From contig NZ_CP025113.1 in NCBI RefSeq assembly GCF_002831585.1, positions 2,991,001 through 3,055,000 on the forward strand: 64,000 bases of DNA, given 5' to 3'. The notes beneath the pieces are model-generated. The model was given only the letters and a program-made list of their open reading frames with translations. It had not been told where the DNA came from and did not search any database. This DNA comes from Bradyrhizobium sp. SK17. GTDB taxonomy: Bacteria > Pseudomonadota > Alphaproteobacteria > Rhizobiales > Xanthobacteraceae. The translations under genes and the position numbers were made by a program. Shown here piece by piece: positions 55,163 to 59,508 of the stretch (the first letter of the stretch is position 1; every line of letters begins with the position of its first letter).

Positions 55163-56509
55163 CTACCGCATCCCCGGCACCGCGGCGTCCGCGGCCGGTT
55201 GGGCACGACCGCTGCCGCGCATCCGCGCCAGCAGCTCCGCGGTCGGCCAGGAATCCGCCGGCAGGCCGTACTTCATCTGCATCGCCTTCACCGCGCTGCG
55301 GCTCGCCTGGCCGAGCACGCCGTCGATCTTGCCGACATCGTAGCCCGCGCGCGCCAGCAGCGATTGCAGCTCCTTGATCTCGTTGAACGGCAGTTGCGCG
55401 ACCGGGGCGTGCGGCCGTTGCATCGGCGGCGCGCCCGCGATGCGGCTGGCGAGATAACCCGCGGTGGTCGAATAGATCAGCGAGTTGTTCCACTCGGTAT
55501 AGGCGGCGAAATTCGGGTAGGCGAGGAACGCCGGACCCAGCCGGCCCATCGGCAGCAGCAGCGAGGCCGGCAGTTCGTCGTTCGGCAACGCCTTGCCGTC
55601 GGTCGAGGTGACGCCGAGCGCGACCCATTTCGAGCGCGGCAGCTTGATCGTGAGGTCGGCCTGGTCCCACGGAAAACTCGTCGCCTGCGGCACGCGCACT
55701 TCCTGAAGCCACGGCTCGCCGCGCCGCCACTTCAGCCCGTTGGCTATGTAGTTCGCGGTCGAGCCGATCACGTCGGGGCCGCTGGCGAGCAGATTGCGAT
55801 GGCCGTCGCCGTCATAGTCGACCGCATAGTTGAAATAATGCGTCGGCAAAAATTGCGTCTGGCCGAGCTCGCCGGCCCAGGAGCCGATCATCTCGTCGGG
55901 CGAGAGATCGCCGCGCTCGATGATCTTCAGTGCCGCGATGGTCTCGCCCTGGAACATCTCGGAGCGGCGGCAGTCATAGGCCAGCGACACCAGCGACCTC
56001 AGCGTCGGCAGATTGCCCATCTGGGCACCGAAATCGCTCTCCAGTCCCCAGAACGCGGCGATCACCGCCGGCGGCACGCCATATTCCTTCTCGGCGCGTG
56101 CGAACGCGGCCGCATAGGTCCGGATGTGCTGCTGGCCCTGCTGCATGCGATAGCTTGCGGCCATGCGGCCGGCGAACTGGGTGAAGATCTGCCCGAACAC
56201 GCGCTGGCCGCGGTCGCGGTTGACGATGCCCTGGTCGTAGACCAAATAGGGCGCGGCCTCCGCGATGGTTGCCTGTGAGACGCCGGCGGCCACCGCCTTC
56301 TGCTTCAGCTCGGCGAGGAAGCGATCGAAGCTCTGGCCGTTGTGGCAGGACGCCGCCCTCGGCGTCGCCACTGCGGCCGGGCGCGCCCTGGCCGGGGCCG
56401 GCGCAGCGGGATTGGGCAGTAGCTGCTGCGCCAGGGCGGTCGTCGAGAGCGCCAGCGCCGCCGCCAACACAGCGATCACGATCGGGACGCGGGGGGAAGA
56501 TGCTGGCAT
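55163..56509 (-). CDS. Lytic murein transglycosylase (MltB-like) with PG-binding domain
   Basis: A 448-residue exported enzyme that cleaves peptidoglycan glycan strands to 1,6-anhydro muropeptides. A signal peptide (cleaved near ALAQ) and a Pro/Ala linker precede an SLT domain of MltB type: AFWGLESDFG has the catalytic Glu, followed by GELGQTQFLPTHYFNYAVDYDGDG. A C-terminal peptidoglycan-binding domain (about 380-440) holds LQSLLARAGYDVGKIDGVLG. The ATG at 56509 is the first Met before the signal peptide. It is divergent from the kinase gene. Confidence 0.9.
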   Translation of the reverse strand: MPASSPRVPIVIAVLAAALALSTTALAQQLLPNPAAPAPARARPAAVATPRAASCHNGQSFDRFLAELKQKAVAAGVSQATIAEAAPYLVYDQGIVNRDRGQRVFGQIFTQFAGRMAASYRMQQGQQHIRTYAAAFARAEKEYGVPPAVIAAFWGLESDFGAQMGNLPTLRSLVSLAYDCRRSEMFQGETIAALKIIERGDLSPDEMIGSWAGELGQTQFLPTHYFNYAVDYDGDGHRNLLASGPDVIGSTANYIANGLKWRRGEPWLQEVRVPQATSFPWDQADLTIKLPRSKWVALGVTSTDGKALPNDELPASLLLPMGRLGPAFLAYPNFAAYTEWNNSLIYSTTAGYLASRIAGAPPMQRPHAPVAQLPFNEIKELQSLLARAGYDVGKIDGVLGQASRSAVKAMQMKYGLPADSWPTAELLARMRGSGRAQPAADAAVPGMR

Positions 56510-56657
56510 CGATATCACCGGCTTGAATAGGGGGATAAGACCTCCTGCATACACCAGGGCGATACCGGGCAACAACGGGGGCATCGCCGTTAGACCAATT
56601 GGGCTTCGGCAGAGTGAGTCGTCGCCGCTATGATCAACAAGTGATTCGCGGGCAGGG

Positions 56658-58346
56658 GTGTCGGCGGATCGATCACGCCCGGAGGGACCCATATGGAGTT
56701 TTCTCGAGCGTCTCTTGGATTCGTCGACGCTTTCGCCGCACGGCATCTGCCTGTTGTGGGAGCCGGAGCTGATCTGGCTCCACGTGATTTCAGACGCCAT
56801 CATTGCCGCTTCGTACTTCTCGATCCCGTTTGCGCTGGCGATCCTCGTCTCCAAGCGGCGCGATTTCCAGTTCGGCTGGATGGCCTGGCCGTTTGCCGCC
56901 TTCATCCTCGCCTGCGGGCTGACCCATGTGTTCTCGATCTACACGCTGTGGGTTCCGATCTACGGCCTCGAGGGCCTGGTCAAGGCGTTGACCGCAATCG
57001 CCTCGATCTTCACCGCGGTGCTGCTGTGGCCGCTGATCCCGCGCATCCTCGCGATCCCGACCGAGGCGCAGCTGCACGAGGCGCATGTCGCGCTTGCCGA
57101 GGAGGGGCGGCAGCGCCAGCGCTCCGAGGTCCTGCTGGAGCGGTTCCGCGAGGCCGAGGTCAATGAGAGCAAGATCCGCCAGGCGCAGAAGATGGAAGCG
57201 GTCGGCCAGCTCACCGGCGGCATTGCGCATGACTTCAACAACATCCTCACCGTCATCACCGGCACCATCGACATCCTGTCGGATGCGGTCACCCATAACC
57301 GGCAGCTCACCGAGATCACCGGCCTGATCCGCGATGCCGCCGACCGCGGCGCATCGCTGACCCGGCATCTGCTCGCCTTCGCGCGCAAGCAGCCGTTGCA
57401 GCCGAGCGACGTCGACGTCAACGCGCTGATGGTCGACACCATCGAGCTGCTGCGGCCGACGATCGGCGATCACGTCGACATCGAATTCCGCCCGGTGCCC
57501 GATCTGCCGCGCGCGTTGGTCGATGCCAACCAGCTCGTCACCGCGATCATCAACCTCGCGCTCAACGCGCGCGACGCGATGCCGAAGGGCGGCCGGCTCA
57601 CGATCGAAGCCCGCGCCGCCGAGCTGAAGCCGTCCGACGTGCAGGGCCATGACGGGCTTGCCGCCGGCGAGTATGTCGCGATCATGCTGGCCGACAATGG
57701 CCAGGGCATCGCCGAGTCCGATCTCGCCAAGGTGTTCGAGCCGTTCTTCACCACCAAGGACGTCGGCAAGGGCACCGGCCTCGGGCTCAGCATGGTCTAC
57801 GGTTTCGTCAAGCAGTCCAACGGCCATATCGTGCTGGAGAGCGAGGTCGGCCGCGGCACCAGGGTCATGCTCTATCTGCCGCGCGCGGCGGCAGTCGCTC
57901 CGGTCGTAGTGCCCGAGCGGCGACATCCGGAGGTCCGCGGCGCGCAGGAAGTGGTGCTGGTCGTCGAGGACGACAAGCTGGTGCGCACCTATGTGCTCGC
58001 CCAGATCGACAGCCTCGGCTACACGACGCTGTCGGCCAACAACGGTGCGGAGGCGCTGGCCGTGCTCGACAGCGGCGCCCCGGTCGATCTGCTGTTCACC
58101 GACGTCATCATGCCCGGCGCCATGAATGGGCGCGATCTTGCCGCCGAAGCGCAGCAGCGGCGGCCCGGTTTGCGGGTACTGTTCACGTCGGGCTACACCG
58201 AGAATGCGATCGACCAGGACGGCAAGCTCGAGCAGGGCATCCTGTTCCTGGCCAAGCCCTACAGCCGCGCCGAGCTCGCGCGCCTGCTGCGGGTCGCGCT
58301 GCGCGACGAGGAGACGGTGATCGCGCAGCAGGAGCCGGCGGAGTAG
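56658..58346 (+). CDS. Hybrid histidine kinase with ethylene-receptor-like membrane domain
   Basis: A 562-residue membrane kinase. Three helices (about 40-128) form a domain aligned without gaps to the ETR1 ethylene-binding domain: D46, Y53, I56, P57, I83, C86 and H90 match ETR1 D25, Y32, I35, P36, I62, C65 and H69, where Cys and His bind Cu(I). Coiled coil, HisKA (H191 in GGIAHDFNN), ATPase (DNGQGIAE, GTGLGLSMVYG) and a C-terminal receiver (D482, LAKPYS) follow. There is no GAF domain as in ETR1. GTG start. Ethylene sensing is inferred. Confidence 0.88.
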   Translation: MSADRSRPEGPIWSFLERLLDSSTLSPHGICLLWEPELIWLHVISDAIIAASYFSIPFALAILVSKRRDFQFGWMAWPFAAFILACGLTHVFSIYTLWVPIYGLEGLVKALTAIASIFTAVLLWPLIPRILAIPTEAQLHEAHVALAEEGRQRQRSEVLLERFREAEVNESKIRQAQKMEAVGQLTGGIAHDFNNILTVITGTIDILSDAVTHNRQLTEITGLIRDAADRGASLTRHLLAFARKQPLQPSDVDVNALMVDTIELLRPTIGDHVDIEFRPVPDLPRALVDANQLVTAIINLALNARDAMPKGGRLTIEARAAELKPSDVQGHDGLAAGEYVAIMLADNGQGIAESDLAKVFEPFFTTKDVGKGTGLGLSMVYGFVKQSNGHIVLESEVGRGTRVMLYLPRAAAVAPVVVPERRHPEVRGAQEVVLVVEDDKLVRTYVLAQIDSLGYTTLSANNGAEALAVLDSGAPVDLLFTDVIMPGAMNGRDLAAEAQQRRPGLRVLFTSGYTENAIDQDGKLEQGILFLAKPYSRAELARLLRVALRDEETVIAQQEPAE

Positions 58347-58439: not shown

Positions 58440-58575
58440 ATCGCCGCACATGACCAATCGTTAATCCGCGCCGCGTCGCTGCGACGCACGGCGTGCCCTT
58501 GCGACGCTCGCGGCAAAATCACTACCTCAACGGCGTCAGTTGTGGCAGCATTCCGCCTGCCGTCAGGGAACCACG

Positions 58576-59508
58576 ATGAATTATTTTCGTACCGCGCTCC
58601 TGCTTGCCGGCCTCACCGCCCTGTTCATGGGTGTCGGCTATTTGATCGGCGGCGGCACCGGCGCCGTGCTCGCCCTCATCGTGGCGGCTGCGACAAATCT
58701 GTTCGCCTACTGGAATTCCGATCGCATGGTGCTGTCGATGTACGGCGCCCATCAGGTCGATGCGCGCACGGCGCCCGAACTCTACAATCTGGTCGCGGAG
58801 CTTGCGCAGCGCGCCGCGCTGCCGATGCCGCGCGTGTTCCTGATGGACCAGCCGCAGCCCAATGCGTTCGCGACCGGCCGCAATCCGGAGAACGCGGCGG
58901 TCGCCGTCACCACGGGCCTGATGCAGCAGCTCAGCCGCGAGGAGCTCGCTGGCGTGATCGCGCACGAGCTCGCGCATATCAAGCATCACGACACTCTGAC
59001 CATGACGATCACGGCGACGATCGCCGGTGCGATCTCGATGCTGGCTCAGTTCGGCATGTTCTTCGGCGGCAACCGCAACAACAACGGTCCCGGCATCATC
59101 GGCTCGATTGCGATGATGATCCTGGCGCCGCTCGGCGCCATGCTGGTGCAGATGGCGATCAGCCGCACCCGCGAGTACGCCGCCGACAATTTCGGCGCGC
59201 GCATCGTCGGCCAGCCGATGTGGCTGGCGTCCGCGCTGGCGAAGATCGAGAACGCCGCGCACCAATTGACCAACATGGAGGCCGAACGCAATCCGGCCAC
59301 CGCGCACATGTTCATCATCAACCCGCTATCGGGCCACGGCGTCGACAATCTGTTCTCGACCCATCCCTCGACCGCAAACCGCATCGCCGCGCTCCAGCAG
59401 CTCGCCGCCGAGCTCGGCACCCAGACCGCGCCGCGCAACACCGGCGCGACCTATCCGCAGCGCAGTCCGTGGGGCGGATCATCGGGCCAGCGCGGGCCTT
59501 GGGGGTGA
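58576..59508 (+). CDS. htpX: HtpX-like membrane zinc metalloprotease
   Basis: A 310-residue inner-membrane protease. Two N-terminal helices precede the zinc motif HELAH (H130, E131, H134), and the third ligand is in [15 protein letters not shown]. Two further helices follow. HtpX degrades damaged membrane proteins during envelope stress. The C-terminal tail is Gly/Pro-rich. The ATG at 58576 is preferred because it starts the membrane helix. Confidence 0.92.

Follow-up and report, generated by a model that had tools for sequence, protein, structure and literature searches.

A putative Etr1-type ethylene receptor with a fused receiver domain in Bradyrhizobium sp. SK17

A hybrid histidine kinase gene and its neighbours

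The window, a 64,000-nucleotide stretch of the Bradyrhizobium sp. SK17 genome, carries on its forward strand an open reading frame (56658-58346) for a hybrid histidine kinase, which is 562 amino acids long when read from its GTG; residue numbers follow this reading unless stated. A profile search with the ETR1 domain, which an earlier note on this DNA had proposed as a check, returned a full-length ETR1_N match (PF25487) at residues 37-133 (56766..57056, +), with E=2.6e-37, 127.4 bits against a cut-off of 27, and 97 of 97 profile positions covered. Pfam also bears out the earlier description of HisKA, ATPase and receiver domains downstream of the sensor. The HisKA dimerisation and phosphoacceptor domain (residues 183-245; 57204..57392, +) contains H191 in the motif HDFNN. 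The HATPase_c domain (residues 289-410; 57522..57887, +) contains NLALNARDA from residue 299, DNGQGI at 346, FEPFF at 360 and GTGLGLS at 372, which we take to be its N, G1, F and G2 boxes, and the fused receiver (Response_reg, residues 433-543; 57954..58286, +) contains D482, its probable phosphoacceptor. Thus, the kinase and receiver modules of an Etr1-type output, with the H191 and D482 motifs, stand in a single chain. No PAS or GAF domain was matched in this frame by the Pfam scan at E<=0.001. The earlier note had remarked on the absence of an adjacent response regulator; this carries little weight and is no surprise, because the protein has its own receiver.

An AlphaFold2 model, built from the window sequence and 25 relatives (26 sequences) as a monomer and used for helix positions alone (mean pLDDT 72, pTM 0.42), predicts with moderate confidence three long helices in the sensor followed by a further long helix. 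Helix 1 (residues 36-66; 56763..56855, +) carries D46, Y53, I56 and P57; helix 2 (residues 73-98; 56874..56951, +) carries I83 and the two positions equivalent to the ETR1 copper ligands, C86 and H90; and helix 3 (residues 104-132; 56967..57053, +) carries K109. The Pfam match and the helix prediction together describe the N-terminal three-helix ethylene-binding domain of Etr1-type receptors. In a search for a solved structure of the sensor domain, the 60 chains listed of 93 covered kinase and receiver only, from query residue 157 onward. The kinase-receiver half also resembles the NCBIfam models PRK13557 and CckA, far under their cut-offs; an identity as CckA was rejected, as the CckA-model scores of 345.4 and 278.2 bits fall short of cut-offs of 1000 and concern this half alone.

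Divergently oriented upstream lies a lytic transglycosylase gene (Pfam SLT_2, with a peptidoglycan-binding domain), whose longest open reading frame spans 55163..56905 on the minus strand and whose true start, judging from a signal-peptide-like stretch, is probably near 56512. Downstream lies an M48 family peptidase gene (58540..59508, +; Pfam). We take the peptidase to be HtpX-like, and the further genes of the block in most comparable loci to be SDR, DUF1993 and OYE genes. Synteny extends to all 25 window-type loci, defined as distinct loci with flanks of sufficient length and a kinase at least 83% identical to that of the window: the transglycosylase gene is adjacent and divergent in 25/25, and the peptidase gene is present in 22/25. 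A scan for promoters and terminators found one promoter-like site at 56606-56634, where 0.3 would be expected, and no terminator.

The translation start

Comparison of 29 distinct reading frames that share the N-terminus FLERLLDSS indicates that the GTG at 56658, taken as the start in the earlier note, probably lies 11 codons before the true start. The conserved start of the orthologues aligns to position 56691, where the codon is ATG in 26/29 frames, GTG in 2/29 and, in the window only, ATA. Among 26 close orthologues, the window included, the position of that upstream codon holds GTG in 20 and ATG in one, while the other five have GGG or GAG there and hence no start codon; some orthologues are, moreover, frame-shifted in the stretch 5' of the ATG. 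A Shine-Dalgarno-like GGAGG (56681..56685, +), kept in 23 of the 26 listed close orthologues, is intact before the ATA. When residues are numbered from 56691, the ethylene-binding positions D35, C75 and H79 receive the same numbers as in AzoEtr1 of Azospirillum brasilense. The gene, with its domain order of ethylene-binding domain, HisKA, HATPase and receiver, therefore probably occupies 56691..58346 (+) and begins with an AUA start codon, or else is read in SK17 from the upstream GTG. Because the conserved start is ATA in SK17, expression may be weak or gene decay may be starting.

Ethylene-binding residues and orthologue conservation

For the alignment with Arabidopsis ETR1 (AtETR1) we used an N-terminal sequence of that protein whose letters were checked at eight residue numbers. 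Seven of these numbers came from the earlier note and the eighth, K91, a residue described as involved in receptor output, from PMC11819568. The alignment places D46, Y53, I56, P57, I83, C86 and H90 of the window protein, without gaps, on D25, Y32, I35, P36, I62, C65 and H69 of AtETR1, as the note had claimed, and K109 on K91. The window protein thus has the full set of seven residues (DYIPICH) by which Etr1-type receptors are recognized. The resemblance is not due to chance, because the family match is strong (2.6e-37) and the seven-residue set does not come automatically with it. All seven were found in 212 of 261 aligned domain matches, a set in which AtETR1 is included, the window copy is counted twice and several genomes appear under two locus identifiers, while 29 have a change of the histidine to arginine. 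Of 109 distinct copies from the genus, the window copy among them, the full set is present in 78 and the H-to-R change in 29, and two are pieces of one split copy. As 29 of 109 copies fail at these residues, the residue-level check is informative in a way that the Pfam domain alone, which would not settle the matter, is not. By this test, the window copy counts as intact.

Conservation among orthologues was assessed with 26 sequences, the window included, after three (L086, L087 and L252) were dropped from the 29 as too distant. The seven residues are invariant in this set. Values of dN/dS were 0.112 for the sensor domain, 0.023 for the 24 residues before it, 0.13-0.17 for the parts spanning residues 134-410 and the receiver, and about 0.65 for the linker (411-432) and the tail. 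Named carriers of a domain at least 89% identical include B. pachyrhizi, B. tropiciagri, B. embrapense, B. viridifuturi, B. mercantei and B. ivorense, among others; these names come from a search with the narrower of two alignments, in which the best 80 of 393 contig stretches that encode relatives were listed, and the relatives named are mostly Bradyrhizobium.

A clade without the copper histidine

The 29 distinct genus copies with arginine at the copper histidine (H69R in AtETR1 numbering) also carry Y32F and P36A. Their loci fall within L032-L060 (for example, L053:1384-3048, L038 and L032), and most encode hybrid kinases. In the domain tree (91 sequences), the 12 H-to-R rows that were left after thinning form one clade with support 100/100 and a long stem, nested by a branch with support 99/96 in a 38-row group of the same family, the other members of which are intact. 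This tree rests on 106 columns, with rows more than 90% identical to a chosen row and L061 left out, and many of its forks are unresolved; the exact place of the H-to-R clade is unsure because of its long stem. The clade is under purifying selection, with dN/dS of 0.34 over 400 of 406 pairs, the other six having been dropped as saturated. From its sequences, it appears to be an ethylene-receptor fold retained for a different purpose. It warns that a Pfam ETR1_N label alone does not mean ethylene binding, and it offers a natural negative control.

Distribution of the domain

ETR1_N was matched at E<=0.001 in 181 of 265 genus genomes, strongly in 147 and only weakly in 34, the latter mostly with copies of the H-to-R type or fragments. 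Because the other 84 genomes gave no match and these 34 only weak ones, the domain is dispensable in the genus. The SK17 genome has a single copy. In wider samples, which partly overlap in their genomes, the domain was matched in 69/296 genomes of the family, 54/347 of the order and 29/398 of the phylum, with 67, 47 and 28 genomes, respectively, over the cut-off. The genus copies fetched for comparison, all from among the matches listed, comprised the best-scoring copies and a chosen set from the genus search, together with most of the weak group.

Several individual records differ from the common pattern. A frame with ETR1_N, HisKA and receiver at L028:1405-2496 has no HATPase_c match, and L011, L022 and L019 hold shortened copies. 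At L106:412-2682, ETR1_N starts at residue 364 of a 757-amino-acid stop-to-stop frame; the stretch ahead of it has no Pfam match at E<=0.001, and part of it may precede the true start. Ten IMG/VR contigs labelled viral (L173-L182) encode relatives of the domain, and in several of these the aspartate is replaced by N, G or H; the genes may belong to phages or stem from host contamination. A Bradyrhizobium-like ETR1_N kinase with 79% identity occurs in a record titled Frankia sp. RB7 (L217), which is perhaps mislabelled or contaminated. Finally, a Rhizobium isolated from a root nodule of Vicia cracca (L172, NZ_CP120639.1) carries on a 1.09-Mb plasmid a gene for a domain that is 44% identical and has all seven residues.

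Host genes and nodulation

The genes expected of the host of a symbiosis-specific sensor, nodA, nodC and nifH, are not credibly present in SK17. In its genome, which comprises 8.29 Mb in two contigs at 100% completeness, the best NodA match had E=1.2e-6, compared with <1e-60 for strong matches in the genus, although the Pfam cut-off of 22 is lenient and this match may exceed it; NodC reached 32.1 bits, where the cut-off is 550, and nifH 24.4 bits, where it is 394. ACC deaminase is encoded (586 bits), and was considered as a co-occurring ethylene gene; with above-cut-off matches in 232 of 265 genus genomes, it is so widespread that it tells little about the receptor.

Across the genus, genomes were counted as nodA-positive at E<1e-60, by which 24 of 163 genomes with a NodA match, SK17 included, were counted as negative. 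Any match to the domain was found in 98/139 nodA-positive and 83/126 nodA-negative genomes (odds ratio 1.24, p=0.43, Fisher), and a strong match in 84/139 and 63/126 (odds ratio 1.53, p=0.11), tests that are only indicative because the species are related. A link of the receptor to nodulation is not supported by these data. Hence, the part of the earlier note that described a bacterial kinase with a plant-type site stands, on the domains, the residues and 56% identity to AzoEtr1, while its proposal that a rhizobium senses ethylene for nodulation is not supported: SK17 has no credible nodA, nodC or nifH, and the domain is not clearly enriched with nodA.

Proposed function and competing explanations

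Considering the domain, its residues, synteny, conservation and host genes together, it is likely that the window encodes a membrane-bound, Cu(I)-dependent ethylene receptor of the Etr1 type, a hybrid kinase whose probable use is in free-living root life. The protein probably senses the plant hormone ethylene. The three N-terminal membrane helices, with the seven residues needed for ethylene binding in AtETR1, would hold Cu(I) through C86 and H90, and ethylene would bind to the Cu(I); the corresponding ligands in ETR1 are described as C65 and H69 (PMC6586836). The signal would then pass along a coiled helix to the complete HisKA-HATPase core at H191, and the phosphoryl group from H191 to D482 of the protein's own receiver. 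From there it would most likely reach a response regulator encoded elsewhere by way of a stand-alone histidine phosphotransferase, a step suggested by the hybrid architecture. If AtETR1 and, as indirect evidence indicates, SynEtr1 are a guide, ethylene would lower kinase activity. Attachment, biofilm formation and colonisation in free-living life at roots, as for AzoEtr1, are likelier uses than nodulation itself.

Conservation of these residues would also fit a site for Cu(I) or a different small ligand, so the nature of the signal has to be weighed. The domain might bind Cu(I) and respond naturally to copper status, redox state, or CO or another alkene instead of ethylene, an explanation that gains from the description of the ETR1 ethylene site as a copper site of femtomolar Cu(I) affinity (PMC6586836) and from the sister clade of the genus, which keeps the domain after loss of the histidine ligand and suggests that the fold can be useful without an ethylene site. 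We consider it improbable, since conservation extends to all seven residues and is not confined to the presumed copper-holding Cys and His, and since AzoEtr1, alphaproteobacterial and 56% identical in its sensor, is reported to bind and answer ethylene (PMC11819568). Plant ethylene is a plausible signal, yet a role as a symbiosis receptor, through which a rhizobium would sense ethylene from a legume and regulate nodulation accordingly, seems very unlikely. The presence of the domain in 98/139 nodA-positive genomes, the somewhat higher share of strong matches among them (p=0.11) and the plasmid-borne domain of a root-nodule Rhizobium isolate would agree with such a role; these are offset by the lack of credible nodA, nodC and nifH in SK17, by a domain about as common in nodA-negative genomes (83/126, p=0.43) and by conserved neighbours (SLT, M48 and metabolic enzymes) among which, as far as examined, there is no known symbiosis gene.

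It is also unlikely that the gene is decaying in SK17, with its start codon already lost and little protein made. ATA does replace ATG or GTG at the conserved start in this one of 29 distinct frames, and related copies elsewhere are either shortened or without the ATPase (L011, L019, L022, L028), but behind an intact GGAGG the frame stays open for 551 codons, and 11 codons before 56691 there is a GTG in frame. Furthermore, AUA is a permitted, rare start codon in translation table 11.

The preferred reading, that of an ethylene receptor used in root life, has consequences beyond SK17. In legume symbiosis, ethylene has mostly been treated as a signal read by the plant; if the receptor is real in the 147 of 265 Bradyrhizobium genomes with a strong match, bacteria may read it too. 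Since there is no clear link to nodA, root colonisation is the first place to look. A tentative extension, which we put forward as a possibility rather than an expectation, is that the ethylene-sensing repertoire of Bradyrhizobium serves general root life outside nodulation, with intact sensor domains on at least two kinase chassis and one lineage whose receptor domain lost its copper histidine (H69R, with Y32F and P36A) and was kept for a new signal. If true, natural pairs of gain and loss within the genus could be used to test what ethylene sensing does for bacteria.

Comparison with known ethylene receptors

Among the publications listed in literature searches, none was on a Bradyrhizobium or rhizobial ethylene receptor by its title or abstract opening, and these searches brought up no binding, copper or phenotype data for a member from Bradyrhizobium; the genus name does not occur in PMC11819568. 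An earlier mention in the older literature is possible, and a first sighting is not claimed. In its sensor, the window protein is 55.7% identical to AzoEtr1 of A. brasilense Sp7 (106 columns), compared with 37% to AtETR1 (100 columns). The N-terminal 130 residues of AzoEtr1 are reported to bind 14C-ethylene saturably, and its D35A and C75A variants to fail to restore biofilm formation (PMC11819568). This binding, combined with the sensor identity, is the strongest reason to expect binding by the window protein. The Sp7 locus compared here (L171, ABSP7_p1) holds a 525-amino-acid frame with D35 that fits AzoEtr1 as described in that source (PMC11819568); among 19 plasmid records with a domain match by tblastn, seven are from Azospirillum. 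Like the window protein, AzoEtr1 is alphaproteobacterial, has all seven residues and the K91 equivalent, and shares the N-terminal motif PHG[IV]CL[LF]W. It differs in being described as a 525-residue protein with a PAS domain and a response regulator encoded by a separate downstream gene (PMC11819568), while in the window protein the receiver is fused and no PAS domain was matched.

SynEtr1 (slr1212) of Synechocystis PCC 6803 is described as a bacterial ethylene receptor with the seven residues in its binding domain (PMC11819568, PMC6682694). It is likened to the window protein by description only, and is reported to be a light receptor as well and to have a separate response regulator and a small RNA (PMC11819568). 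Arabidopsis ETR1 shares with the window protein the seven binding residues and the sensor-kinase-receiver layout, and differs by a GAF domain placed between sensor and kinase (PMC6586836), for which the window protein gave no match, and by signalling described as mainly through a histidine-kinase-independent route (PMC11819568).

Within the genus, B. japonicum and its relatives have kinases with the order EBD-PAS-HisKA-HATPase-REC, which have an extra PAS domain compared with the window protein and are encoded at other loci; within the flanks fetched, none of the seven window neighbours lies near them. Their sensor is about 80% identical to that of the window protein (80.2% for L203, which has all seven residues), while the kinase parts of this type are about 42-46% identical. 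Judged by its sequence, the window protein is thus a putative ethylene receptor of the known bacterial kind, with a hybrid layout unlike that of AzoEtr1.
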